The notes under the pieces were generated by a model. It worked only from the letters and a program-made list of their open reading frames with translations, did not search any database and was not told the origin of the DNA. A DNA stretch of 64,000 bases from Sacculina carcini (Eukaryota; Arthropoda; Thecostraca; Sacculinidae): the NCBI GenBank assembly GCA_916048095.2, contig OU696594.1:5363281-5427280 (forward strand). The letters are read 5' to 3'. Of this stretch, positions 4,399 through 58,400 are shown piece after piece (positions within the stretch are counted from its first letter, which is position 1; the number at the start of each line of letters is the position of its first letter). Both the position numbers and the translations under genes were made by a program.

Positions 4399-7300
4399 AC
4401 GCATAAATAACACGGTCAACACAGAAGATATCGGCTTAGTTTATCAAGGAAATGTGTGCGTAGAAGACTATAAAACAAACTGAAGAAAACACGTTGTCGA
4501 AAAGATATATATAAAGTATAGTTTCTCTTTCAGGAGCGTAGATAAGTGGAATCACAAATTTGACAGCAAAATAGTTGAAGCTAGAAATTTAAGTTCCTTT
4601 AAAAATATGCTAGATTAATTATGGAAAATAGACGGGACAGCACGAGCTTAGCTCATATCCTGTAGAACAACTATGTGAGTACACTGACACACACACACAC
4701 ACACACACATACACAGATACATACATAATATATACAATACATAGAAATCGCATCAGAGGAAGTTTTTTAAAAGACGATAGTAAGAAAATATAATAGAATG
4801 AGATAAAAAAATACACGAAGACGGAATCGAATAATATACAAGAAGATACAAGATAGTAAGATAAAATATATATGGAGATAGAGTAGAATAGGATAAAAGA
4901 TACAAAAATACAACAAGATAGATTAAATATATTAGAAGATACAATAAGATGGAAGGAAAATACAAGAAAATGGAATTAGAAAAATAAAGATTAAATTATA
5001 TATGATTTTGAAGAGGATTGAAGATAAACAAATATGAATAAACTATGTTGAACAGCTAAATAGGACGGCTTTTTTTATTTATCTAATTAACCTCCTTTGG
5101 TTTTTCCACTCTCAATGTTTGTGTGTGTGTGTGCTAGTGTGTGTGTGTGTGTGTGTATTTTGTGTGCTAGTGTGTGTATGTTTGTGTTAGTGTGTGCTAG
5201 TGTGTGTGTGTTTGTGTTAGTGTGTGCTAGTGTGTGTGTGTTTGTGTTAGTGTGTGCTAGTGTGTGTGTGTGTGTGTATGTGTGCTAGTGTGTGTGTGTG
5301 TGTCTGTGTGTGTGTGTGTGTTGATGTGTTTCGATTTTAATCATAATAATAATAATAATATTAATAATAATAATTTTGATTTGTCCTGAAGGCTTTGTCC
5401 GGCGCGTTGGTCGACAATGGCCGATATTACGTCCGGATGTTCTGTGCCGGATTTGCGTGAATCCGTCCGACACAACGCCGAAAACAACAACGCCGTAATA
5501 GAAGAAGGAGCAATTCCGGCCGTAGCTACGGCCGGAATTGCGACGACGGATAACAGCTACGGACAATGTCCGCTTTCCGGCTTTGCCGCTCGATCCTACC
5601 ACATCCGACCCACACAACAACATCAACAACATCCGAGCGGTGGATGTGTTGGATGTGCAGTGTGCGATACATCCAGCACATCCGCACACTGTCGATGTGA
5701 TGATGTTATGATGTGCGTTTCAGATGTGCAGCGTCTTATAGACGAGCGCAGTGATCTCATTCAACGTCTACTAGACTCCGAACTGGTCAGTTTGTGTGTC
5801 TGTGTGTGTGTGTGTGTAAGTGTAAGTGTAAGTGTAAGTATGTGTCTGTTTGTGTGTTTGTGTCTGTGTGTGTGTTTATATGTGTGTTTGTATGTTTGTG
5901 TGTTTGTGTATTTGTGTGTGTGTGTATCTGTGTGTGTGTTTGTGTGTGTGAATGTGTGTTTGTGTGTCTATGTGTTTGTGTGTGTGTGTCTGTGTTTGTG
6001 TTTGTTTGTGTGTGTGTTTATATGTGTGTTTGTGTATTTGTGTATTTGTGTGTCTGTGTGTGTGTGTGTGTGTGTATTTGTGTGTATGTGTGTGTGTTTG
6101 TATATGTATATATGTGTGTGTATGTGTGTTTGTGTGTGTGTCTGAGTGTTTGTGTGTGTTTGTGTCTGTGTGTGTGTGTGTGTATGTGTGGGTGTGCGTA
6201 TATTTATGTGTGTACTTCTGTGTGTGTATGTGTGTGTGTGTGTGTGTGCTTTGTATGAGTATATGTGTTTGTTTTGTGTCTATGTCTGTGTGTGTGTGTG
6301 TGTGTGTGTTAATGTATAACCTGTGTGTATGGGAAATTCCCCACTGGTGGGTTAATGAAGGGGTTTTCAAGTGGGTAATTAAAGGTCGAACAGAACAGGA
6401 CAACTATATGTATGTGTGTGTGTGTTTTTATCAATCAGAATTTTCGTTTATTTTCATTTCTCTAGTGACTTTCTGGGCATTTAATTTCGCTGGAATAACT
6501 GAATTTATTTCTGGATTTCTCAGACGCTCTTGTGTGTGTGTGTGTGTGTGTGTGTGTGGAAAATGTGAAAAATTGTCTCTCACCATTAAGAAGAGCAAAA
6601 CAAGAGAAAAGGTTTTGATTGGAATTAATAATTGACAATTAAACCAACAATTGATCAATTGACAATTAATTGATCACTGTCAATTAATTGATAGACAGAC
6701 AGTAATTGAAGAATTTGAGAGGAAAAGAGAGATATTTATAGACGTTTTCTATAAATCTCTCTCTAGCGTAATGATTCGCTTTTAGTGATATTTTTGCGAC
6801 TTTCTTTTGTTCAACTATAGATGGCGCTGCGATCTCACAGTCAGGCTGCCAGTCTTCAGTGGCGCATTCGTCACATGTGCGCCGTTAATCGTCAATTGCG
6901 CCAGCATTGTATCAGCGCCGAATCTTGCGGCCTGATTACCAATCACAATCATCTCAATCATTATGGCTGTGATGGCGTCCAATCAGCACGTCGGCTCATG
7001 TAATTTCTGCAATTTGCAATTGTTTTTTTTGTTTTTTTTTAATTCTTGATATCAATATACATATTTCATAATTTATAATATGAAATTTCTTGGGTCTTTA
7101 ATTAGTTTTCCGCTCTATATATATATATTATACATTTGTTTATACATTGTGTAATTAATTTTATTAATGTAATTTATGTTAATAATGTAATTAATGTTCA
7201 GAATGTAATTAATGTTCATAATGTAATTTTTTTGTAAATGTAATCGACAAATTATTTAACATTATAAATTATGATTATGTGGTAAATTATTTCACATAAT

Positions 7301-15512: not shown

Positions 15513-15930
15513 ACCATTATGTACTAGATAATTTAGCTCTTGTGTGTATGTGTATGTGTATGTGTGTGTGTGTGTTGTATTGAAAACGTCCTTTGGAGTC
15601 TGTGATAGCTTGTATGCGCGCGCGTGTGTATATGCATGAAAATATGTATGTGTATGTGTGTGTGTTTTCTACAATTAATTAATTAATTAGCGAGATGGGT
15701 TACTGGTGTTTTCCCGTCAACGCCGAAATGGATTGAATGGTTACGTTTACCAAAGATACACACCGCGTGTGTGTGTGTGTGTGTGTGTATGCATGTCAGG
15801 GGGGATGAGAGGTTGATTTCGGGGGGGTTTGCGATCATTTTTCTGTTTTGGCGTTAATTTCCGGTCTGCGCGCGCGTCTGTGCGGGCGTTTTTTGCGTTT
15901 CTCTAGAATGTTTGTCATTGTTTATCTAAG
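15513..15930. other. Intergenic sequence with short TG tracts
   Basis: TG tracts at 15540-15575 and 15765-15790, alternating CGCGCG motifs near 15617 and 15870, and (AATT)n near 15674. No gene was seen. Confidence 0.5.
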
Positions 15931-15941
15931 CCAGACACTTG

Positions 15942-16855
15942 GTAACACACACACACACACACGTACACACACACACACACACACACAAATATATACACAG
16001 TGAAACACACATCAATATCACACACACACACACAAATACATACACACAAATACACACATACACACAAATACACACGTACACATACATACACACACAAACA
16101 CACCGAAATATACACACACACTCCCAAATATACACACACCCAAATAAACACACACAAATACACATATACACACACACTACACTCAAATATACACACACAA
16201 ATACACATATACACACACAAATACACAAATATACACAAACACACACACAAATACACACACACCCAAATATACAAACACAAATACACATATACACACTACA
16301 CACACACACACAAATACACACACACACAAATATACACACAAATACACATATACTCACACACACACAAATATACACACAAATACACATATACTCACACACA
16401 CACACACACAAATATACACACACACAAATATACACACAAATACACATATACGCACACACACACAAATATACACACAGACACACACACACACAAACCCACA
16501 CACACACACACACACAAATACACGCACACACACACACAAACCCACACACACACACACACACAAATATACACACAGACACACACCCACAAATATACACACA
16601 AATACACATATACCCACACACACACAAATATACACACATTGACACACAAATACACACACACACACACACAAATACACACACATACACACACACACACACA
16701 CAAACCCACACACACACACAAATACACACACAAACACACACCCAAATATACACACAGACACACACACACACACAAATACACACACAAACACACACCCAAA
16801 TATACACACAGACACACCCAAATATACACACAGACACACACACACACACACATAG
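15942..16855. repeat. About 900 bp (CA)n-rich array
   Basis: Interrupted CA repeat with an AAATATACACAC variant recurring at roughly 20-60 bp, giving THTHT or CVCVC translations in all frames. It is the longest CA-dominated block in the window by total span. Confidence 0.95.
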
Positions 16856-17159
16856 AGCGAGGTTGTGTCGCATTGCCCCAGGCTGGCTGTGTTGGACAGT
16901 GTGTTTTATTTTCTCGCCGCCAGGTGTCTCTGCGTGTCGTAGAAGAAATGTTTCTACAATGTGCCTATTGTAACATGTGTGTGTGTGTGTGTGTGAAAGA
17001 TATTGAAGATATTGGAAGGATTTTATCAGGGTGATTTGTGGGTGCATTTTTTCAGTCACTGTTGTTTGTGTCGTGCCTTGATAAACTATGTGTCTGTATG
17101 TGTGTGTGTTTTTTTTACTTTTTCATCGGCTATATAAGTATGTTCATGCTCGAAGAGAT
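16856..17159. other. Unassigned intergenic sequence
   Basis: Mixed-composition sequence with one short TG tract. A short frame after 16860 continues from the CA array, but nothing marks it as a gene. Confidence 0.4.
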
Positions 17160-24599: not shown

Positions 24600-27147
24600 A
24601 AGTATAATAAAATCAAACTGATATGAGACGGTTATATGAGTAGGCTGCTTGGCACCTGAACAACTGAGTCAAACTGTAGGAAGACGGCGGTTCTCGCAGC
24701 GTTCTTACGACAGCCTTAATGTCGCGTTTTGTTCTCATATCACTGAAGGATGGCCAGCCAGAGCTACGCAACGCCATCCGACACATGGTCGTATTTCGCT
24801 ATGCCGTAAACAACTCTAGCCGCGAATCGTAACAATCGACTCACTCTTTCCGAGTCCTGTTGTTTGAGACCTCCCAAGACCGGAAGACAATATTAAAAGC
24901 TTAGAGAAAACGTAGGAGGCCACCAGGGATTTGACGATCGGCGTTCTGAGCGTTTTTCTCAGTTTGGCGATTGTGACCAGCACTGCGCTGCAGCATCTGA
25001 CGACGTGTGACACGTGCGCGCTCCAACTGAGAGTCTCATCAACAATGACGCCCAATACTTTAATATCGGTGACTTTGTTGAGTCTGGCACATAGAGGCAA
25101 GTTCGAGAGTGACGATTGCGTGCCGCATACCATGATTTTTGTCTTTTTGGCGTTTGTATTTAGACCGTTTGCATTGTACCAGTGTGTAGCAGCTCGTAAA
25201 CTAATCTTCAACTGACGTTCCGCCTCGTAGATTCCATTGGTCGAAAGTTGTTCCTGAGGTGAGGTGATGACTAGTTGAATATCGTCGGCGTATGGGAACA
25301 TTCGACCGTATGGTATGTGGCACATCAGGTCGTTGACAGCTACCAAGTATAACAGCGGACCGAGAACAGAACCTTGAGGAACGCCATATTCTATTGGGAG
25401 TGTGACAGTTCCGCCGCGCACAATTTGTGTCCGTTTGCTCAGATAACTGTTGAACCAGCATGACTCAACTCCGCACCACTCCAATCTACGGCAGATGTTT
25501 TTTTCTATACACACAGTCAAAGGCCTTACTGACATCAAGTGAAGCTATTATGGCTAGTATATTGGCTAGTAGTATTAAGTCCATTTTCCGTGATATATAG
25601 TCGGAGAGCACCAGGAGCAAGTCCTTGCATGAACACCCTTTACGGTAAGCGAACTGGTCTGCAAAGAATTGGTTGATACACACAGCAAAGGTATGTGTGT
25701 TATTATCAATTGAAATTCGTTTATTTTTATTTCAAATGACCTCTAATGACATTTACTTTATGATGTAACAACTGAATTTATTGAATTTATCAGCGCTGTT
25801 GTGTGGAAAATGAAGAGGAGAATCATTAATCTTAAGAAGAATCTTAAGAAGTGGGGAATCATTGAGAGAAGAAAGGTTAAGAACGACAGTTCTATAAACT
25901 CAGTTAGCATTGCATATTCCAGCACCATCCAGGCTTTCCTATATTTCAAGTAATTACTGCTAATGAAAGTATTGCAAGGCGCAAAGGTCGAGTGTTTTCG
26001 GGCTTTGAGGTATCCCCTGACTTAGACCAGAACAGCTGCCTTCCAGTCAGATGGAAATATCGATGTTCGGAGAGAACAATTCACGATCTTGAGCAGGTAT
26101 GGTCCTATCACAGGGAAACATTTTTCGATGGCAAAAAGAGGTATACCGTCTGTTCCAATGGACGACTTTGACTTGATGGAGTTCAAGTGATTTGACAATT
26201 TAGGCAAGGTGATGTGTTAGAGAAAAAGCATCCGAAACTACCGAAACTGGTCTAATCTCAACGCGTCTAGATGTTCGAAAATTGTCGAGTTCGTCTGCAA
26301 TAGAGCGAGTGACGCTGGAGTAGAATGAGTTGAACATATCTGCTGTCTCCGCCGATTCTGCGATTTTCGGTTGGCTGGACGGGTCGTTTTTCCCGATGAC
26401 AATTAAACGCCGCAAGCCTGCCCAGAATTCTTGTGTGCCTCGTTGCATTTGTTGCGTGTCATTTGATAACTCAGTCGATTTGCTTCGATCTCAGTTTTTA
26501 CCAAGTTTCTCATCTTTCGAAACTCAGCAAGTTTAGCGGGGTCCTTTGTTCTCCGCCAGTGCCAATACAGATTATTTTTCGCGTTGATTTTGCGACAGAG
26601 CTCGGTATTGTCTCTGATGCATGGTTTAGAAGTCTTTTTGGCTAAAACGGTTTTCATTGGACACACTAGGTCGACACACACGTTCTAATTCTTGTGTGAA
26701 TTCGCTCAACATTTCGTCGACATTTGTATCAATTTGGTCAAATCAAGACCAGTCTGACCACAGCAGGTTCACACACATCAGGCCCCAATTAGCTGTGCAG
26801 ATGTTCGGTAAGAGGCACGTCGTGCACCCTGTCATCTTCGATGTTAGTTATGATAACATCGAGTAAGGATTCCGTGGGCGGCAGATGTGTGGGTTTTTTG
26901 ATCAGCTGTTTCATGTTGAAATCATGTAGTGATGTGACGAAACGCGAGGATAACGTGTCATTCAGTAGATTGAAGTTCATATCGCCAGTATGTATGAGCG
27001 AATGAGGTAACGCTAGCGCCGACTGAAATAATGTGTTCATGAACTTCAAGCTAGCTTCGACTAGTGAGTTTGGTGACCTGTATATTACACCTACGGTGAC
27101 GGCATCGCAGCATTTGCTTTTCACTGTCAAGAATAGTGCCTCTATAG
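24600..27147 (-). pseudogene. Degenerate CR1/Jockey-like LINE, main part
   Basis: A - strand LINE broken by frameshifts and stops. Recognisable in order are endonuclease pieces near 26789-27130 (VGVIYRSPNS, HTGDMNFNLL), a linker, and RT motifs in 25683-24816: QFAYRKGCSCKDLL, SLDVSKAFDCV, YGVPQGSVLGPLLY and FPYADDIQLV. A MITE-bearing block (25690-25997) interrupts the region before the RT motifs. A hAT MITE at 27148-27448 separates this part from its endonuclease start at 27449-27650. The 3' end is near 24600. Confidence 0.8.
25690..25997 (+). mobile_element. MITE plus flank inserted in a LINE
   Basis: The 3' part of the dispersed hAT-like MITE (ACTGAATTTATTGAATTTATC, AGCGCTGTTGTGTGG, AAGAAGTGGGGAATCATT) followed by about 110 bp running TTCTATAAACTCAGTTAGC to GTATTGCAAGGCGCAAA. 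The same MITE-plus-flank block recurs at 33431-33808, so the two arose by duplication or belong to a larger composite element. Confidence 0.7.
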
Positions 27148-27448
27148 CTGGGTTCTCAACCTTTTGATGGCTCCATACCCCCGATGGATTGTCGAATATG
27201 GTCCCATACCCCCTTTACTTGACTGTTCAAATAATTATCACCAATCCGATTATTGGTCAGCATGTCTTCCAGATCAACGAGTGTTTCAATCGCTTGAAGT
27301 GAGTGTACTTTAGATACGGATTACTAGGAAAAATCATAATAATTGATAATATTATTATGCATAAATCGTTGATAATTTATGCCATCAGTACCCAGAAATA
27401 TATTCCCATACCTCCAAGGAGTAGGTTACCCCCGGTTAAGAAACCCTG
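27148..27448. mobile_element. 301-bp hAT-like MITE splitting a LINE
   Basis: Ends CTGGGTTCTCAACC and GGTTAAGAAACCCTG are inverted repeats of the hAT type. The 8-bp flanks CTCTATAG (27140-27147) and CTCTATGG (27449-27456) are a target-site duplication with one mismatch. The LINE endonuclease frame continues across the site once the insert and one flank are ignored. Confidence 0.85.
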
Positions 27449-29968: not shown

Positions 29969-31144
29969 TACAGCACACTTGAAACGAATCGGTGGATTTC
30001 CTTGGCGTCTGGCTGGTTATATCAATTGTGTCCATATTCATTACAAGGGTAGCACAACAGTCTGTAAGATGTATGAGTTTCAACATACTAGCTTTGAAAA
30101 AGCACATACGGATATACAGGCATACACACGTTATTAACGTTTTAATTTATACCAATGCAGTTATAAGTTGAGAAAATGTCATTTTCCCAGAGTAGATATA
30201 GAGCTTGGCCAATATTAATTATATATACATCTATAATAATAACAATATATTTAGAAAAGATTGATAAAAAAATAATATATTGGTAACCACAATAGTTTAA
30301 ATATTAAACAGCATAATATTAATAATTATAAATAACATAAATTTACGAATTATTAATTTAATATAAAAAACAGTTAAAATGTTGGATACCTCAAGAATGT
30401 CACATTATAACATTAATGTGTCATAAATTTTAAATTGAAGATGTATTATTGTCTGGCCACAAATTTCTACAACAAAACAGAAGAGAAAAATCAAGAAGAT
30501 TGAAAATATAGACAAATTTTTTGTCTAGATATAAACAAAACAAAGCGAAAGATTTGCAGAGAAAAATCTAAATCAATTATGTAAATTGTATTGGTTGAAA
30601 TGTTGCTGAGATTGCATGGAATTCGATGTTGCATGAAATTGCTGTCTCTAGACAAATGGTAGCATTTAAGTTGCAATGAGTCAATCTCAAGCTTTTCAGA
30701 CTTCATCTCATAGTTCATCTTCATCCAGGTCCAATTAGCGGGAGCAATCTCGATTCTATTGTCAGAATTCAGATGGGAATATTTGGCTGATAAATGGATC
30801 TATACGTCCAACACCTGTACATGCTTGCGTAAATTGATATGGATATGTATGTGTATGGGGTTGGATGTCATTTGGAATTCGTCGAATAATCTCTTCTGCA
30901 AAAAATAGCCATTGAAGCCACAGGGCTTTTGTTATCAGTCCAGCGACCTGAGCTATTAAATTCCACGAATTCCTTGTCTGGATTATTAGGATTGTCAAAC
31001 GGTATTCTGATTACTAGCTAGCATACCTTTGTTGAGATATGTCCTCCAATATCACCTTGGCCATAGAACTGACACATAATGACATTGCTCAAGACATAAC
31101 GCAATCTGAACAATGTTGTTGGCTTCAATTATTCGAACTTCGGT

Positions 31145-31512
<368 letters not shown>

Positions 31513-31992
31513 AACTTGTTTGCCATCCTCATAACATCGTAAGCTTAGAAATTTCATAAGGAAGATTTAAGGGAGGTATTGAGAATGACAGTTTTTCAAC
31601 TGAGTACATCAGATCAACGAGTGTTTCAATCGCCTGAAGTTACTGTACTTTAGCTTACGAATTACTAGGAAAAATCATGATCATTGATAATTTTATTATG
31701 CATAAATCGTTGATAATTTATACCATCAGTACCCAGAAATATATTCCCATACCCCCAAGGAGTAGGTTACCCCCGGTTAAGAAACCCTGCTCTATGGTAT
31801 CACAGTCACTCACAATGTCAAGTTTGATGACCTTCAGTTCAGTACGGCACAGAATAGCGACTCCGCCTCCTCTGCCTTTTGTCCTGTCACATCGCCACAC
31901 TGAGTAGCCAGGAACTGTAATGAATTTGTTGGATAGCGAGGACTTGAACCAACTCTCGGATATGCAGAGAACGTCTATGCGGTTTTCACTAA

Positions 31993-35300: not shown

Positions 35301-35594
35301 TAGTTATTTGCTCTGGACATTTATTGCAAAGAACGAGCGGCTTTTATGATGCAATAAATTTACACGCGCCTTGTCACGTCGGCCATTGAGGTGGCGTAAT
35401 TGTTGCAAATTGTTGCAAATTGTTGCAAATGTCATGTGGTTAAGTAGATAGTTTGTAGTTGCTACAGGCTACACAAGAAAACATAAATAAAGTGTGGGCA
35501 AAACATACAAACGTGTTTATATAAATCAAACACACTAGTAATTTTCTCATTTCAACACAACATAAATAGTTAGTAAACCGCATTTTCTCTAACA

Positions 35595-36050
35595 TTGTGT
35601 GTGAGTGTGTGTGTGTGTGTTTGTGTTTGTGTGTATGTGTACGTGTGTATATGTGTGTATGTTTGTCTGTATTGTGCGCATGCGTGTGTGTGTATGTGTG
35701 TGTGTATATGTGTGTGTGTCTGTTTTGTTCGTATGTGTGTGTGTGTACGTGTGTATATGTGTGTGCGTGTGTGTGCGTGTGTGTATCTGTTTGTGTGTGT
35801 GTGTGTGGTCATCTGTTTGTTTGTGTGTGTGTGTGCTTGTGTGTGTATGTGTGCTTGTGTGTGTATGTATGTATGTGTGTATGTGTGCTTGTGTGTTTGT
35901 GTGTGTTTGTGTATGTTTGTGTGTGTGTATGTGTGTGTGTGTGTGTGTGTTTGTGTGCTTGACACACAAACACACACCTATTCACACACACACACACACA
36001 CAAACATACACAAGCACACATACATACACACACAAGCACTTATATATACA
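35595..36050. repeat. About 450 bp TG then CA array
   Basis: Interrupted TG for about 360 bp, then switching to CA at 35963 to 36040. The switch creates a large potential inverted repeat. Confidence 0.9.
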
Positions 36051-36760
36051 CTCTTTTATTAAATCAAGACAAACTTAGGACACATCCTCTTGAACTTGTG
36101 AAATATTACAGGTGAAATGAATGAATTTTAGAATGCAATATTTATGCTCACATCAAATGTGATTTATTGTGATTAAAAGTGTAGATTTTTGTGTCGAGGC
36201 TCGGGGGGATGACAGTCATCATGCATTAGTGTTCAAAGTTGACTCAGTTGGTCAATTACATGAGATCCTCAACCATTTTATGCCTAGTCAATTACAACAC
36301 ACACATACCTCAATGAAAAGTATATTGCATATAATTGCATACACACTTGTCGTGTATTGTTACTTTTTTTGCTATGCTGATTTCGATGAAAATTGTCGCG
36401 TAAAAGAAAACTGATTTGAATAGAATTTTAGCGTTGATAAAAAGAAAAATGCAAAAATACAAGTTTAACAGAGGTAATTACAAAAGGGTTATATCAAATA
36501 AAAATTTAGAAATTCCAAACTACAAGTGGAAATCATTTTCAAGTATAAATTTTCATTTTCTACAAATTCAGATATGTATTTGATGATGTTGTGATTTTTG
36601 TATTACAGTTTTTTGTGTGCATCAAACGAAAAGCTTTTATAAGCTTCCTTAAATCGAACGGACAATCTCAATAAAATACTCCAGAATAAATCAGCGATAA
36701 ACCGCCTAGCACAGAAGATTTATAGAAAAAGAACAGCTTCAAAATCAGTCAATCAATATT
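36051..36760. other. Upstream region of the GPCR gene
   Basis: AT-rich, without recognised elements. It should contain the promoter and 5' UTR of the receptor gene, but no motif can be assigned with confidence. Confidence 0.4.
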
Positions 36761-48007: not shown

Positions 48008-48160
48008 TGCTATGTCTTTCATGAATAGGGTAATCATAATTCAATATGCTAGACCCTTTATAGCAACGTTCAACGAATTTTGAACGTGGAGAATGAGAGA
48101 AAGAGAAAGAGAAAAAATACACAAATACAATATGACACACACAATCATGACAGATCAATA
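46646..48160. other. AT-rich intergenic sequence
   Basis: No gene was found. (CTGT)n at 46862-46881, TG tracts at 47616-47670 and 47978-48008, CA at 47868-47902. Open frames are compositional. Confidence 0.5.
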
Positions 48161-48189
48161 CATCACACACATACACACACACACACACA

Positions 48190-48354
<165 letters not shown>

Positions 48355-48417: not shown

Positions 48418-51400
48418 TCACACCTTATATTCATCGCTAGTGTACACAATGTTATCTAAGATATAATAGGACTTCAACAGAAAAAATTTCTTAGAGTGTT
48501 TTTTGAAAAGAGGAATAGAAGTGATAGAACGCAGTGTTGGGGAGAGCTTATTGTAAATACGGGGTCCTAAGATAGATAGACAGCGATTATAGTGAGAATG
48601 TCTAGAAGGAAAAGCAGGTTCCAATAAGAGACGAGAATCATCAGATGACCTAAGTGTACGAGTAGATTTTTTAAAAGACAGAAGATCGAATAAATACGAG
48701 GGCTTACGAAAAATAAGGGTAGAATGAATAATTAAGCAGACACGATGGTCAATAAGTGCCTTAATAGGGAGAAGTCCTAATTTTTGTAGAAAGGGAGAGA
48801 CATGAGAGCCAGCAGGGATATTGTAAATTAAACGACAGGCTTTATTAATAACAGATTGAAGTTTGCGAAGCTGGCGGTGGTTAAGAGAAAGAAAAAGCGA
48901 GCAACAATATTGAATCCTACTGAGAATGAAAGAATTAGCTAGTTTAAAGGCAGCAGAGACAGTTAAGTATCTTCGGATAGAATATATTCGCCTAATATGA
49001 AAATTACAGACCTTAATAATATCGGAGATGTATAGATCAAAACAAAGAGAATCATCAAGTAAAACACCTAAGCTACGAACAGAGTTAGAGAGAGGAACAG
49101 ATAGAGAAGTTAAGCTTCTAGAAGATTGAAAAATGATATATTTAGTCTTATCGGGATTGAGCTTAAGATGGTGGGAAAAAGACCAAGTTTCAATATCATC
49201 CAAGAGAGAAGAAACAGAAGATTGGGAAATAGTATTAGACGAGAAAATAATTTGGATATCGTCCGCAAAGATTTGGAAAGTGACATCATGACGATGAAGG
49301 ATTGCACCAATGGAAGTTAAGTAAATATTGAAAAGGAGAGGGCCTAGGACGGATCCCTGTGGGACACCGTATGAGAGTGGGAAAGACTCACTACAAGAAT
49401 CACTGGTACAAACAAACTGAGACCGAGTAGAGAGATAAGAGCGGAAGAATGATAGTGCAGTACCACTAATACCTAGGTTAGACAGAGTATTGAGTAGAAT
49501 TAGATGATCAACAGTGTCAAAAGCTGCAGAGAAGTCCAGTTGAATGAGAAGAACATCCTTACAAGCAAGAGTAGACTTAAGAATAGAGTCATAGAGGAAG
49601 AGAAGCGAGGTTTCTGTGGAGTGAAAGCTACGGAAGCCTGACTGTTCAGGGAGAAATAGATCATGGCGCTCAAGGTAGTCCGAGATCTGGACATAAGCAG
49701 CCATTTCAAGAGATTTGGATAGCCAAGGAATTCTAGAGATGGGACGGTAGTTAGACAAACAATTGGGATCAAGGTTATGTTTTTTCAGAATTGGGAGAAT
49801 ACTGGCACTCTTTGACGCAAGAAATTCGCCAAGAGAGAAAGCCGTATTGATAAAATAAGTGATGAAGGGAAGAAGTAACTCAGTACAGTGGGGAATTCGA
49901 GCAAGGTCAATAGGATCCAGGGAGGAAGATCGAGTGTGAACACGTCTCAATAGTAATCTGCAGTCAGAAATGGAAATTGGGTGGAACGAGTGAAAAATGG
50001 AGGAGGTAGCGGGAGAATAAGACAATATAGCAGGAGGGAAACGACAGCAGATATTAGAGATTTTTGTCTCAAAGAAATTTGAAAATAGGGAAGGTAAGCG
50101 AGATGAATCACTATCAGGAAACACAAGGGTATTGGAATTGCCTAGGAGTCTATTGAAAATATTCCAAAGAGATTTACTATCAAGACAGGAGGAAATCTTA
50201 AAATTATAATAGGATTTTTTGGCGTTCTCACACAAGATATGATGGTGACGCCGTGCAACACAATAAGAATTCCATGATGCGTCATTTTTCAGACGCAACC
50301 AATGGCGCTCAAGTCGTCTAAGAGAAAGCTTGGAATTACGAATTTCACTATTGAACCAGGGGCTATGAAGAGAGAGAGAGGAATGAAACTTCTTAACAGG
50401 AACAAACTGATCTCTAAGAAGTTCAAGACAGGAGTTGAAATATTTACAAAGATCAGAAGGGGGTAAACAAATATATGAATCAGAATTGAAAGAAGAAAAT
50501 ATATTATTGCAAAGTGAGTCATAATCAGCATTTTTATAATCTAAAAATGAGACAGTTTTTTTAGATCTTATGATGATAGGAATAAATGCGGAAAATTCAA
50601 CTAATGAGTGATCAGAAACAGAAGAATCAATAGGGAGAATGGTCAAATCCTTAATAAAAATAGGAGAGTCAATAAACGAAAGCACTAAATCAAGGGTGTG
50701 GCCACGTTCATGAGTAGAGCCGCACACATGATTTGACAAGCCATACGAAGAAATTAATTCTAGAAACGAAGATGTGCACGACTTGAGATGAGGAGCATCT
50801 AGCCAAAGATTAAAATCACCACATAAAACAATCCTAGAAGAAAACATAGATACAAGCGTGTCAAGTAGAGTACTAAACTCATCTAAGAAAACAGAACTAG
50901 ATACATAGTTACCACGATAGATTGAGAGAATACAGACGGGGAGAGAGTAACGGCTAGTGATCTTACAGCAAACATATTCGAAGGAATTGATACACAGACC
51001 TAACTTACATTGAATAAGACGGATACAATCAGAATTAAAAATAATAGCAACACCACCACCAACAGACTTAGAGGAATTAGAACTATTGATGGAGCGAGAC
51101 TGGTGATAAGCGGAGTAGTTAGAAGGAAGACAGCTATTAAAAGTAGAAATTTCAGAGGGAGAAAGCCAAGATTCATTCACAAAGAAAATGTCATAATTAA
51201 CTACGACAGAGACAAAGAGAGAAATTTTAGATCTAATAGAACGTAAGTTCCAAAGAGCACAACGTACATATTTACAATCAGCAGAAACAGAGAGTGATAA
51301 ATTATTGAGATTAGATTTAGGTGAAGAACACTTAGCGGTACGACGAGTTTGAGGATGAGAAGTAGACTCTTTGACGCTGGAGGTGGACGAGGCTGGAAGA

Positions 51401-51441
51401 TCTGGCTGGTCAAAATTCACGTCTAGTTTCCCGGACGGCAG
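48418..51441 (-). CDS. LINE ORF2: endonuclease and reverse transcriptase
   Basis: The open frame begins after a TGA at 51444-51442 and gives about 1000 residues. Counting from the GTG at 51420, endonuclease motifs are WNLRS (57-61), NESW (82-85), GGGVAIIF (121-128), CGDFN (200-204) and SDH (269-271). RT motifs are GFRSFHSTETS (595-605), LDFSAAFDTVDH (628-639), YGVPQGSVLGPLLF (684-697) and FADD (718-721). It cuts the target and copies the element RNA by target-primed reverse transcription. There is no AUG before residue 192, inside the endonuclease, so separate AUG initiation cannot make the full enzyme. It is in the -1 frame relative to ORF1. There is no RNase H domain. Confidence 0.9.
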   Translation of the reverse strand: MPSGKLDVNFDQPDLPASSTSSVKESTSHPQTRRTAKCSSPKSNLNNLSLSVSADCKYVRCALWNLRSIRSKISLFVSVVVNYDIFFVNESWLSPSEISTFNSCLPSNYSAYHQSRSINSSNSSKSVGGGVAIIFNSDCIRLIQCKLGLCINSFEYVCCKITSRYSLPVCILSIYRGNYVSSSVFLDEFSTLLDTLVSMFSSRIVLCGDFNLWLDAPHLKSCTSSFLELISSYGLSNHVCGSTHERGHTLDLVLSFIDSPIFIKDLTILPIDSSVSDHSLVEFSAFIPIIIRSKKTVSFLDYKNADYDSLCNNIFSSFNSDSYICLPPSDLCKYFNSCLELLRDQFVPVKKFHSSLSLHSPWFNSEIRNSKLSLRRLERHWLRLKNDASWNSYCVARRHHHILCENAKKSYYNFKISSCLDSKSLWNIFNRLLGNSNTLVFPDSDSSRLPSLFSNFFETKISNICCRFPPAILSYSPATSSIFHSFHPISISDCRLLLRRVHTRSSSLDPIDLARIPHCTELLLPFITYFINTAFSLGEFLASKSASILPILKKHNLDPNCLSNYRPISRIPWLSKSLEMAAYVQISDYLERHDLFLPEQSGFRSFHSTETSLLFLYDSILKSTLACKDVLLIQLDFSAAFDTVDHLILLNTLSNLGISGTALSFFRSYLSTRSQFVCTSDSCSESFPLSYGVPQGSVLGPLLFNIYLTSIGAILHRHDVTFQIFADDIQIIFSSNTISQSSVSSLLDDIETWSFSHHLKLNPDKTKYIIFQSSRSLTSLSVPLSNSVRSLGVLLDDSLCFDLYISDIIKVCNFHIRRIYSIRRYLTVSAAFKLANSFILSRIQYCCSLFLSLNHRQLRKLQSVINKACRLIYNIPAGSHVSPFLQKLGLLPIKALIDHRVCLIIHSTLIFRKPSYLFDLLSFKKSTRTLRSSDDSRLLLEPAFPSRHSHYNRCLSILGPRIYNKLSPTLRSITSIPLFKKHSKKFFLLKSYYILDNIVYTSDEYKV

Positions 51442-52736
51442 TCATCGCTGGTCTTGGTGCGGTATATAACTCGAGTTCTCGCCAAGATTAAGCAGGGACA
51501 CGAGGGGTCAAACGAAGAGTGGCTGGCGCTGCTACGACCAGCTCGCGAACAGTTGGCGCATTTGCTGGCAACTTTCAAGGAACACGATTTTGTGGCGTGT
51601 TTGCCAGCACACCAGCCACAGGTGTTCTCTCGGGCCGAGCACTTGACAGCCATGTGACCGTGACGCTGGCACTTGGCACAGCGAGTGACCCAGTAACGGT
51701 CGTGTACCACGCACCGTCGGTCGCCCAGGTAGAGGTATCCTGACTTCATCACGACGTCACGGATGGCAGGAGAGACGGCGGCAACAACTGTCTTTGAGTG
51801 GCTTGCAGACTTCTTTGAGAAAAGCACCTTGAAGTCGGAAGAGTGCTTGATTGCTGTCTGGACTCCATCATTTTTGAGGCACACAGAGTCGAGGATGTCC
51901 TTGTCAGAGATGTCAGAACTGACCGATGTAATGGTCAGTTTTGGCATGATCTTGCCACGACAGGAGGCATTGAGCTGTGTGTCGCTCTTCATCGCCAACA
52001 TTGCACAGTCTGCAGATTTTGAGTCTGGCAGACTGATTTTGACAGCACCACGCTTGGTTTTTGTCATCTTGACCACTGGAACAGTTTTCAGCGCCTCTGA
52101 GACACGCTTTTTGTCCACTGGAGCTTGATCATGTGAGTGCACGATGATCTCCCGTGACACCGCCTGCGAGTATGAACGCGGATGTTGAACAGGCGTTGGC
52201 GGAGTCGGCATCAGTGGCGGAGTCGGCATCAGTGGCGGAGTCGGCATCAGTGGCGGAGTCGGCATCAGTGGCGGAGTCGGCATCAGTGGCCGAGTCGGTA
52301 TCAGTGGCGGAGTTGACATCAGCGGAGGCTTGGGGCAAGTCATCCGTTGTAGCTGAGCCTTGATTTCGCTGACGGTCTTAGTCAGCTGCACCAGAGATTG
52401 GCTTTCAGTCGGTGACGATTGGGTCATGTCCACCATGGTTTTTTTGTCGGCGGTTGTTATGCCGACAAGGCTGTCCAGCCACTCCTGCATTTCTGCAGTG
52501 TTGCAGTCACGAGCGAGAGTGCAACTTTCACACGTGAAGGAAGCCCTGGTGGTGAAGAAATTAATGGTCATGTACTTGGGCATACGGCTGCATCTCACAT
52601 GCACATGTTTTTTGCATTGTGAACAGAACAAGGCACAAGCAGTCACGGCCATTTTGCACGTCGTACAAGTTGAGCCGTCAGGAGGGGAAGCAGCACGGGA
52701 CGGTTGAAGCCCGGCAGGCTTGGTCATCGCGGCCAT
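51423..52736 (-). CDS. LINE ORF1: PHD-like finger and zinc-knuckle protein
   Basis: About 437 residues from MAAMTKPAG. The frame is open 18 codons further upstream, but that part is repeat-derived. Visible in order: a Cys4-His-Cys3 PHD-like finger (CTTC, CSQCKKHVHVRC, CESC), a (PPLMPT)n proline-rich repeat, a region that could be RRM-like, and three zinc knuckles (CAKCQRHGHMAVKC, CGWCAGKHATKSC, CANC...H...C). It is expected to bind the element RNA and act as a chaperone in the RNP. The frame ends DDCRPGN and TAG, and its last codons form the slippery site. Confidence 0.85.
   Translation of the reverse strand: MAAMTKPAGLQPSRAASPPDGSTCTTCKMAVTACALFCSQCKKHVHVRCSRMPKYMTINFFTTRASFTCESCTLARDCNTAEMQEWLDSLVGITTADKKTMVDMTQSSPTESQSLVQLTKTVSEIKAQLQRMTCPKPPLMSTPPLIPTRPLMPTPPLMPTPPLMPTPPLMPTPPLMPTPPTPVQHPRSYSQAVSREIIVHSHDQAPVDKKRVSEALKTVPVVKMTKTKRGAVKISLPDSKSADCAMLAMKSDTQLNASCRGKIMPKLTITSVSSDISDKDILDSVCLKNDGVQTAIKHSSDFKVLFSKKSASHSKTVVAAVSPAIRDVVMKSGYLYLGDRRCVVHDRYWVTRCAKCQRHGHMAVKCSARENTCGWCAGKHATKSCSLKVASKCANCSRAGRSSASHSSFDPSCPCLILARTRVIYRTKTSDDCRPGN
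51426..51432 (-). promoter_or_regulatory. GGGAAAC -1 ribosomal frameshift site
   Basis: On the - strand the ORF1 codons CCG GGA AAC TAG contain G GGA AAC, a perfect X XXY YYZ heptamer in the correct phase. A -1 slip here continues CTA GAC GTG straight into ORF2. The zero-frame stop is the next codon. A weak stem, TTTTGAC with GTCAAAG, can be drawn starting about 10 nt downstream with a 33-nt loop, but no stimulator is proven. Confidence 0.8.
52199..52320 (-). repeat. 18-bp in-frame repeat in LINE ORF1
   Basis: About six to seven copies of an 18-bp unit encoding PPLMPT on the - strand. Copies are almost identical, consistent with recent slippage or conversion. It makes a flexible proline-rich linker between the PHD-like finger and the RNA-binding part. 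Confidence 0.85.

Positions 52737-53143: not shown

Positions 53144-53197
<54 letters not shown>
53144..53197. repeat. (CA)n flanking the LINE 5' end
   Basis: About 54 bp of CA directly outside the LINE. With the CA stretch outside the 3' tail it marks the probable insertion site. Confidence 0.9.
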
Positions 53198-53201
<4 letters not shown>

Positions 53202-55450: not shown

Positions 55451-58400
55451 TGTTCACTACACTTTTCTTTCTTTGTTTGTTATATATTAATTAAATGCAC
55501 ATGTGTATGTGTGTTTGTGTGTATGTATTTATCTGTATGAAGGTATGTGTATGTTTGTCTGTGTGTGTGTGCGTGTATGTGTATATGTGTGTATGTATGT
55601 GTAAAGTAAAGTAAAGTAAATTGCATTTATTGCACATCCATCAAAATATACATTTGAGGCTTTTCAGTACAATATATAAATATATATACACACACACGCA
55701 CACAAACACACACACACACACCCACACACATACACATACACACAATCATTCATGTATACAAACAACAACATAACATCAATATAGACATATTAGCACGTAC
55801 TCAGCAACAACTTGATATATAAGCTCATAGGCAGTAAGGTTCGTGTTTGTGCGATATTCAAGTTGTGTTCACGAGAGTGTTTTCATGTGAATGTCCCGTA
55901 TATATATCTGGCAGCGTCGTAGTTCAATCGTTTTCTTCCGGCATCTGTGATAATCTTCGGGTAGATAATGTCGCTTTGTCTTGTCGTTCGAGATCCGCTT
56001 TGTCGCTCTATGGTGTTGTACAGCAGGTTCGGTGTGTTTGTCTGCATAATTTTGAAAATGAGTCGTTTTCTGTTGGTTGTAAATAACTCGTCAATTCGCG
56101 GCATTCCCAGCTTGGTAAATGCGTCGGATATATGATCTCGTTTTCGTCTTTTCGTGAGTATTCGTGCGCAGAAGTTGAGGACTTTTTGAAGTTTGTGAAG
56201 GTGTGTAGGTCCTGCTGTGCCATATATAGTGATGCAGTATGTAAGTGTTGACATAATGAACGCATTGATGAGAGGCCGATGTGTTCTTTCGGGTAAAGAT
56301 GACTTGGCGTTGTTCAAGGCAATCAGCATGCCTGTCGATTTGCGAGCTAGTTTGTCAATATGCTCTTCAAAGTCGAGATATTTATCTAGCGTAACTCCCA
56401 ATAGCTTGATGCTGTTCTGTTCGGCAATGTTTGTATCTGAAAAGCGCAATTGTACAGTAGGAAATGTTTTCAGCAGGTATTTTGTTCCAGCTATCAAAAC
56501 CTGCGTTTTTTGAGGATTGATTTTCATCTTGTTTGCGGTGTAGTAACAAAATATGTTCTTCGTTCCAGATAATGTATCGTTTCGTTCAATTGATGTTTAC
56601 TCGTTGAAATGGTTAATGTGGTGTCGTCTGCATATTGTACGATTTCGATTCTTTTCGATACATGAGATGACAAGTCGTTAGAAAAAAGCAAGAACAACAC
56701 ACAACTGAGAGAGCCCCCTTGAAATATCGACATATTTGGTGTTGTCGCTCTCTTGGATGATAATTGGTATCCACCAGGCTGTTGCACTTTGACTTGTTGA
56801 GTGTGGCCTTTCAAGTAATGTCGGAACCAGCGGTCATCGATGTTGTAAGATCGTATTTTGTCGAGCAGTAGGTCGTGGTCAACAATATCAAAGCACTTTG
56901 ACAAATCAATTGATGTTACGATTGTCGCTTTCCTTTCCTGCATAGCCTTGTAGATGGTGTCGGTCACTGTTGCAAGCGCTGTTTCACACGAGTGGTCTTT
57001 CCTGTAGCCATGATGTGCATCACTCAGTATGTTATGGTCTTCCATGTATTGGGTCAGTTGTAGTTGCACCACCTTCTCTATTATTTTCATTACTGGCGGA
57101 AGTATGGATATCGGTCTCGTGTCGTTGTTGCCTTTAGGTATAGGAACGATCATCGCATGTTTGAGTCGTGTTGGTACTTCGCAAGTTATTAGGCTTTCAT
57201 TCACAACGTCTAATAGTATATGGCATATACCGTCGTAAAAAGTGATTATCGACTTCATACTGATGCCGTCGGCGTCTTCTGTCATGCTCGGCTTCATGCT
57301 AAGTGTGATCATTGTTAATGCTTCCATACTGATCGCACTCAGTTGTAAACAGCCTGTATTGACTCGTGGCAGTCTGTTGCCTATACAGTAGTCGCTAACT
57401 GGTATTTCCCGTGATGTCGATGCTCCGATGTTTAGATATTGGTCGTTAAGTTCGTTTGCGTCATGTATAGTCGGATGTTTTCGGTTTGTTGTGCCAATTA
57501 TGTGTTTGCATTGTCGCCAAAAATCGTTCGGTCTTTTCTGGATTCGCTCTGATATCAACGTCGCAGAGTAGTTTCGTATGGCAATCTTGCATTCTTTGTT
57601 TAATTTCCGGTATTCGTCTGTCATTTTCTGTAGTAAGGCGTACTTTCTTCTCTTGTATAATAATCGTATGTCGAATGGGAGCGGTCGTCGGTGTGTGTTA
57701 CGTATTCTGACTCGTCTGACAGGCAGGAAAATAGTGAGAAATGTGGCAAAAATGTGGACGAAATACTCGTACTTTGTCTCGATTGATTTACTAGAATAAA
57801 ATGGAGTCCAGTCTGACAGCCGCAGAAGGTCTATACACAGCGGTATGTTTATATTCTGGTAAAGTCTTGTGATTTTCATAATTTCGTTTGTTTTTGTGGC
57901 AGTGTGTGTGTGTGTGTGCGTGTGTGTGTTTGCGCATATATAAACCAGCATGTTAAGATTGAATCTTTTATTTATCTGAGTAATCTATTTTGAATAATTC
58001 ATGATTTATGAATAATTCTTTTGAATACTTCTTGATTACATTAATATATTTAATAGTTCTTGGTAAAATATTTTTGATTTAGCATGACTGGGCTTAAGTT
58101 TTTAGTCATAAATTTTTCTTGAAGAAAGCAAGCATGGTTTTAAATAAAATATTAGCAAATATAAAATTGAGTTTAATTGTATTTTCACATGTTGTGCCTT
58201 TTCCATCCTATGAAAAATTTCGAAAAAATTTAGCAAAAAAACAGGTCAGCCAACGTTTTTTCCACACAAAAAGAATATTTGTCATTTTCCCAGAAGAACA
58301 AACAATATTTGTTTGACATCCATAAATTACTTCCACATAGCCAGCTAACCTTTCCATCTTCTCTGATGCCCAACTAAAAAGATAAATGACTTTCGGTAGC

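Follow-up and report, generated by a model that had tools for sequence, protein, structure and literature searches.

Candidate recoding junctions between ORF1 and ORF2 in a clade of LINEs from Sacculina carcini

A two-ORF LINE and its junction

The window, that is, the whole 64,000-nucleotide stretch of Sacculina carcini DNA analyzed here, carries on its minus strand an element whose sequence identifies it as a two-ORF LINE of putative CR1/L2 type, recently active (Table 1). ORF2 contains both an AP-type endonuclease (EN) and a reverse transcriptase (RT) domain, the combination by which a LINE is recognized; matches to the RT region include solved chains of LINE-1 ORF2p, among others, and eight other matches in the genome carry the full 1007-codon frame at an identity that rounds to 100%. 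ORF1 has a full-length homolog in P0030 (32% identity over 98% of the query). The original prediction listed a PHD-like finger, zinc knuckles, an endonuclease, and an RT in this element. The latter two were recovered by Pfam, while the PHD-like and knuckle assignments are Cys/His patterns seen by eye, a Pfam search of ORF1 having returned no PHD or zinc-knuckle match above cut-off. Comparison with PDB gave weak matches of the PHD-like cluster to ARID4 (E 0.21 and 0.45) and of ORF1 to the HIV-1 nucleocapsid, and the zinc-knuckle region aligns across 12 families, with its C and H residues kept only in part.

Table 1. Features of the LINE, in positions of the window
Feature	Positions	Strand	Evidence
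ORF1, 437 aa from ATG 52736: PHD-like cluster, middle part, three CCHC-type knuckles	51423..52736	-	Sequence; homology to P0030
PHD-like Cys/His cluster, ORF1 residues 24-72	52521..52667	-	Sequence pattern; weak PDB matches
Three CCHC-type zinc knuckles, ORF1 C-terminus	51492..51680	-	Sequence pattern; alignment of 12 families
UGA opening the ORF2 frame; confines the -1 window to 19 nt	51442..51444	-	Sequence; copies
Putative slippery heptamer G GGA AAC, phased to ORF1	51426..51432	-	Sequence; distinct fetched junctions A 20/20, B 24/24, C 7/7, N 3/3
ORF1 stop UAG, adjoins heptamer	51423..51425	-	Sequence; fetched junctions
ORF2, 1007 codons, stop 48420-48418, first Met index 198	48418..51441	-	Sequence
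Endonuclease domain PF03372, ORF2 residues 63-255	50677..51255	-	Pfam E 4.9e-6, just above curated cut-off
Reverse transcriptase domain PF00078, ORF2 residues 553-784	49090..49785	-	Pfam E 2.7e-31
3' end: GCGCC...GGGCGC inverted repeat, short AATGT repeats, (TG)n	48190..48252	-	Sequence; tail motif in 28/40 copies

On the minus strand, ORF1 ends GAT GAC TGC CGT CCG GGA AAC TAG. ORF2 lies in the -1 frame relative to ORF1, and 19 nt are common to both frames. These letters confirm the core of the original prediction, which had described a phased GGGAAAC immediately before the ORF1 stop and a -1 slip into an ORF2 frame opened by a TGA. It had further claimed that ORF2 lacks an AUG for about 190 codons, through most of the endonuclease. 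This too is borne out: the first Met of ORF2 falls 195 codons past the heptamer, well beyond the EN motif at index 64 and within the Pfam EN match. By arithmetic, a -1 slip at the heptamer would yield a fusion of about 1439 residues, in agreement with the 1440 or so predicted. The junction heptamer is the sole phased X XXY YYZ heptamer among 435 positions of ORF1.

Elsewhere in the window, (TG)n tracts lie on both sides of the element (48160-48190 and 53145-53200), the one upstream of this copy being long. Long (TG)n/(CA)n tracts at 15900-17100, 31030-31570, 35440-36080, and 5750-6630 contain open stretches of up to about 400 codons, in several reading frames, that are seemingly spurious, and frames at 55886-57984 and 24819-27214 appear RT- or EN-like by eye, suggesting more LINE remnants.

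Junctions across copies and related families

The assembly from which the window derives (264 Mb, 43 contigs) was searched for copies. A 261-bp junction probe identified at least 40 copies, at least 11 of them at full score with the window's own included; because eleven matches score full, the LINE family appears to have been active recently. The GGGAAAC-TAG and the ORF2-opening UGA are kept in 40 of the 40 copies listed by the probe, several of which are broken in their ORFs elsewhere. Nearly all of these copies belong to two subfamilies, A and B, which are about 10% apart over the element, show 193 synonymous and 123 non-synonymous differences over the full length of ORF2, and were located with a probe that itself includes the heptamer. 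Some A and B copies have long open frames that reach the end of the fetched stretch, and very long frames also occur in the match tables.

The 3' tail motif was found in 28 of 40 copies (L009-L047 and the window copy), 27 of which are readable beyond it, the tail of L025 being masked by N. (TG)3 or more stands next to the tail in all 27 of these A/B copies, and (TG)8 or more lies close by in 19. A target preference of this LINE for TG microsatellites is likely, as judged from the 3' flanks counted.

Subfamily C was recovered by an ORF2-protein search, independent of the junction, and retains GGGAAAC-UAG in 7/7 junctions. Its flanks differ and the GUG past the stop is lost, yet the 27 nt around the heptamer are identical to those of the window copy and the B copy L036; the B copy L047 is one base off. 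Family N likewise ends ORF1 in GGGAAAC-TAG, and its sister family O in GGAAAAC-TAG (3/3 fetched junctions each, out of at least five matches each). Both have ORF2 in the -1 frame and no AUG from the junction to the EN motif. A comparison of A with N shows 10/10 identical positions across heptamer and stop, against 40/68 upstream and 13/27 downstream.

After removal of duplicates, the distinct junctions number 20 in A, 24 in B, 7 in C, 3 in N, and 3 in O, and GGGAAAC-UAG is kept in all 54 of those from A, B, C, and N. Excluded from these counts were L001-L008 (shorter cut-outs of refetched copies), L086-L093 and L103 (positions already represented by other loci), L066, L094, and L101 (family F, below), L105 and L106 (other records), and L081 and L102, which are truncated before the junction; these last two 5'-truncated copies begin right at (TG)n. 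The alignment of genomic copies that had been proposed as a check thus finds both the heptamer and the -1 relation conserved. Two observations had been named in advance as speaking against a frameshift, a conserved ORF2 AUG and a disrupted heptamer, and neither refuted it. No conserved ORF2 AUG was found among the fetched copies, and A, B, C, and N all carry an unbroken heptamer, replaced in O by the variant GGAAAAC, which is not a strict X XXY YYZ sequence.

Family G, on a branch apart from A-C, provides further support for the frameshift reading. Its ORF1 ends TCA AAA AAC TAA, placing a phased A AAA AAC directly before the stop in 3/3 fetched junctions (out of the full and partial places listed); ORF2 is again in the -1 frame, with its first AUG at index 284. 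In G, the corresponding position is taken by another retroviral heptamer, with the frames again offset by -1. The features expected of a -1 frameshift site are thus found as follows: a phased X XXY YYZ heptamer in A, B, C, N, and G, with O deviating; a downstream ORF overlapping in -1 and lacking a nearby AUG, where C has an AUG (17 codons ahead of the EN motif) absent from A, B, N, and O; and conservation, in copies as well as in families, of both the site and the frame relation. Of the 9758 codon positions in the ORF2s of ten families, 20 hold a phased X XXY YYZ heptamer. The chance of a heptamer is thus about 0.2% per codon position, and about 4e-6 for two branches each to have one in the final 7 nt of ORF1, the latter value being our own post hoc arithmetic with a background pooled from related families. 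A cluster of G-like ORF2 pieces at G000:C30:5295537-5449604 lies in open frames of 1027-1336 codons, without an internal stop in 10 of 12 matches; it is possibly a duplicated, altered LINE enzyme gene.

Six further families (D, E, H, I, L, and M) carry ORF1 and ORF2 in one frame, separated by a single border UGA in 26/26 fetched junctions, and none has a phased heptamer at the end of ORF1. The border reads UGA CUA in D (6/6), E (9/9), H (2/2), and M (2/2), UGA CUU in I (1/1), and UGA CGU in L (6/6). In E, the stop appears fixed rather than a random lesion, because thirteen matches share the same 958-codon open frame (two have a stop within the match). E, H, I, L, and M have no Met ahead of the EN motif, while D has an AUG one codon past the UGA; overall, an ORF2 AUG before the endonuclease motif is absent in 10 of 12 families, the exceptions being C and D. 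Several of the copies sampled are defective: L065 (D) and L075 (E) are broken, and ORF1 is truncated in L080 (M), L078 (L), and L061 (D). The two H copies, 18 kb apart, have an extra ORF1 stop in common and may stem from the duplication of a single dead insertion.

In human cells, UGA CUA is the consensus context of high readthrough, with 0.6-2.3% measured in HeLa for three genes (PMC4359377). A single in-frame stop in a leaky context is thus present in D, E, H, and M. The UGA CUU G context served as a low-readthrough control at 0.27% (PMC4359377), and family I is therefore weaker as a strong readthrough site; the UGA CGU border of L, like the UGA CUU of I, is weaker evidence for readthrough. 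One idea is that the UGA CUG ahead of the heptamer in A-C, absent in N and O, is a relic of a readthrough stop.

The tree of LINE ORF2s includes database proteins, one of which, P0021, is named as a fish protein. The ten families with full ORF2 form one clade, in which A-C make up one branch, G is sister to L, and the rest are D, E, H, I, and M; N and O, for which junctions only were fetched, are outside the tree. The ORF2s of G and L are 76% identical, although their modes of ORF2 access differ (-1 heptamer versus in-frame UGA). The AU test rejects a clade made up of A, B, C, and G (p-AU 2.1e-39), and at least two changes of mode are needed on the tree. Because this grouping is rejected, the mode must have changed at least twice, with the implied fusion kept. 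These data suggest that selection keeps the fused protein rather than the device that makes it.

Family F (L066 and L101), a LINE of this genome that is more distantly related, lies outside the clade. In L066, an ORF2-frame AUG lies 8 nt ahead of the ORF1 stop, a layout nearer to the classical one, beside seemingly recoding relatives. A SART1-type AUG in the ORF2 frame, overlapping or adjoining the ORF1 stop, is absent from the window junction and present in D and in this outgroup.

Beyond this genome, no relative was confirmed in viral_contigs, and genome_contigs contained two relatives in prokaryote bins, with differing layouts (a single long ORF; a 2A-like motif), that are probably eukaryotic contaminants. 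Neither collection yielded a relative with a readable junction of the kind described here. P0001 and P0030 are relatives known here from protein alone.

Proposed access to ORF2 and its alternatives

We propose that the enzyme bearing EN and RT is made as an ORF1-ORF2 fusion by recoding, a reading that the junction sequences make quite probable. A ribosome at the end of ORF1 would decode G GGA AAC just ahead of the UAG. Some ribosomes would slip one base back, onto GGG AAA, read CUA GAC, and continue into ORF2, while the remaining ribosomes would terminate at UAG and release the ORF1 protein. A ribosome holding Asn-tRNA may be made to pause by the UAG beside the heptamer. Selection would act on the fusion and on the excess of ORF1, with relatives using AAAAAAC UAA or a leaky in-frame UGA, mostly UGA CUA; the invariant feature of the clade would be a fusion obtained during elongation, by a device open to exchange. 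What the data show is the sequence, its phase and conservation, the lack of an AUG, the two alternative junctions, and the tree; slippage and readthrough themselves, any rates for them, and the lack of a free-standing ORF2 product are inferred.

A 3' stimulatory structure is usual, though not universal, at -1 frameshift sites. The original prediction had proposed looking for a downstream pseudoknot, and nothing stood out either in folding or in a simple pseudoknot scan. The 111 nt just downstream of the window junction gave z +0.53 against shuffles, and among the 12 families no folding window had a z below -1.7. In the pseudoknot scan of the same families, a simple and thus weak test, at least 4 of 30 shuffles were equal or better everywhere. 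Retroviral GGGAAAC and AAAAAAC sites are tabulated with pseudoknots (PMC3835772). Across the linker of 57-59 codons, no constraint was detected in the ORF2 frame, and pn/ps cannot tell the frames apart (0.61, 1.62, and 1.81 in the ORF2 frame; 1.2, 0.69, and 1.05 in the ORF1 frame; 2.21, 1.07, and 0.61 in the third frame). Given this lack of codon-level constraint, translation of the linker is argued from its open frames and from an in-frame 3-nt indel in C.

Three other routes to ORF2 were weighed. Termination-reinitiation, in a variant of the SART1 stop-start arrangement, would restart ORF2 at a nearby non-AUG codon, and we regard it as unlikely. Candidate codons do exist: A-C have a CUG directly past the ORF2-opening UGA, and A and B have a GUG 2 nt past the UAG. 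The identity of the 27 nt in the window copy, L036, and C (L047 one base off) would also fit, as would the ORF2-frame AUG of outgroup F. However, the GUG is altered in C, the CUG is missing at its place in N and O, and the AUGs that B, C, N, and O have just past the stop belong to the frame of ORF1 rather than that of ORF2. Nor would reinitiation lead one to expect that ORF1 has a phased heptamer within its final 7 nt on two branches, or that six sister families have a lone in-frame UGA.

Independent initiation of ORF2, by internal ribosome entry or from a shorter transcript and with no fusion, seems more doubtful still. The lack of any 3' stimulator in the folding and pseudoknot scans would agree with it, and for LINE-1 ORF2, AUG-independent initiation has been considered likely (PMC5009743). 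Yet in A, B, E, G, H, I, L, and M a start at the first in-frame AUG would remove the EN motif, and the fixed -1 or 0 frame with its border heptamer or UGA would be left unexplained. Least probable, to the point of being hardly credible, is a joining of the frames before translation, by splicing or by RNA editing (e.g., A-to-I, turning UGA or UAG into UGG). Editing would fit the families with an in-frame UGA, but no base change can produce the -1 shift of A-C, N, O, and G. Copies of a spliced RNA would escape the junction probe and hence be missed by the sampling used; still, none of the loci opened had ORF1 and ORF2 fused in one frame. On the comparative evidence, the case for a LINE clade with recoding in the gag-pol style is strong. 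The broader proposal, in which the entire clade would make its ORF2 enzyme only as a rare extension of ORF1, with the device swapped at least twice and the fusion kept, showing that a fixed ORF1:ORF2 ratio or a covalent link of ORF1 to the enzyme is selected in LINEs, we hold to be rather likely, with less assurance than the fusion itself.

Relation to known systems

The junctions described here most resemble the gag-pro/pol sites of retroviruses, with the same heptamers, the same -1 direction, and a fusion towards reverse transcriptase (PMC3835772). GGGAAAC is used by MPMV, SRV-1, ovine maedi-visna, and FIV, and AAAAAAC by MMTV and HTLV-1; both are frequent retroviral heptamers, and retroviruses possess both devices (PMC3835772). 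Unlike these viruses, the element here is a LINE without LTRs or a protease match, its stop adjoins the heptamer, and no pseudoknot was found. The single in-frame stop between the ORFs of D, E, H, I, L, and M is similarly comparable to gammaretroviral and alphavirus readthrough, the UGA CUA context resembling the alphavirus-like one (PMC4359377), though again in a LINE and with no 3' structure found.

Among non-LTR elements, a need for frameshifting has been named for the gag of HeT-A, which is a precedent (PMC5009743). However, this Drosophila telomeric element has no RT of its own, and for TART, another such element, a start codon in the +1 frame is presumed. SART1, LINE-1, and Zorro3 are also two-ORF LINEs, and translation of ORF2 is tied to ORF1 in SART1 and L1 (PMC2881922, PMC5972666). 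SART1 uses an overlapping AUG (UAAUG reinitiation) and Zorro3 needs its ORF2 ATG (PMC1965478), whereas the window junction has neither. CR1/L2-lineage LINEs with a type IC ORF1 (PHD, RRM, CCHC) share the EN-RT order and, to judge by Cys/His patterns seen by eye, may share the ORF1 make-up (PMC4120745). As a difference, the relevant passages of that source speak of stop plus start codons, or of one ORF alone, for some subgroups, and mention no recoding signal (PMC4120745). LINEs with 2A (StopGo) likewise apply an elongation-level device to their polyproteins (PMC5972666), but 2A splits one ORF, while here two ORFs would be joined. NPGP 2A-like motifs lie ahead of the endonuclease in the relatives P0002, P0003, P0006, and L106, a third elongation-level device.

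Within the open-access full-text literature, of which parts were covered and to which subscription papers and Repbase notes do not belong, we found neither a -1 heptamer or leaky UGA between ORF1 and the EN-RT ORF of a LINE nor a swap between the two; the passages of one review likewise name no slippery site that joins ORF1 to ORF2 in a LINE (PMC5009743). The parts are thus known already, and what appears new is the putative recoding junction in a LINE clade together with the exchange of device.

Translation of the second ORF in LINEs has long been an open question, for which the published accounts of SART1, LINE-1, and Zorro3 point to reinitiation or other forms of initiation. If the reading proposed here is true, this clade would constitute a natural comparative experiment, in which pairs such as G and L, with enzymes 76% identical, let control of the ratio be compared side by side. 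It would also represent a convergence with retroviruses in elements that have no protease match, raising the question of whether the enzyme works while tethered to an RNA-binding ORF1.
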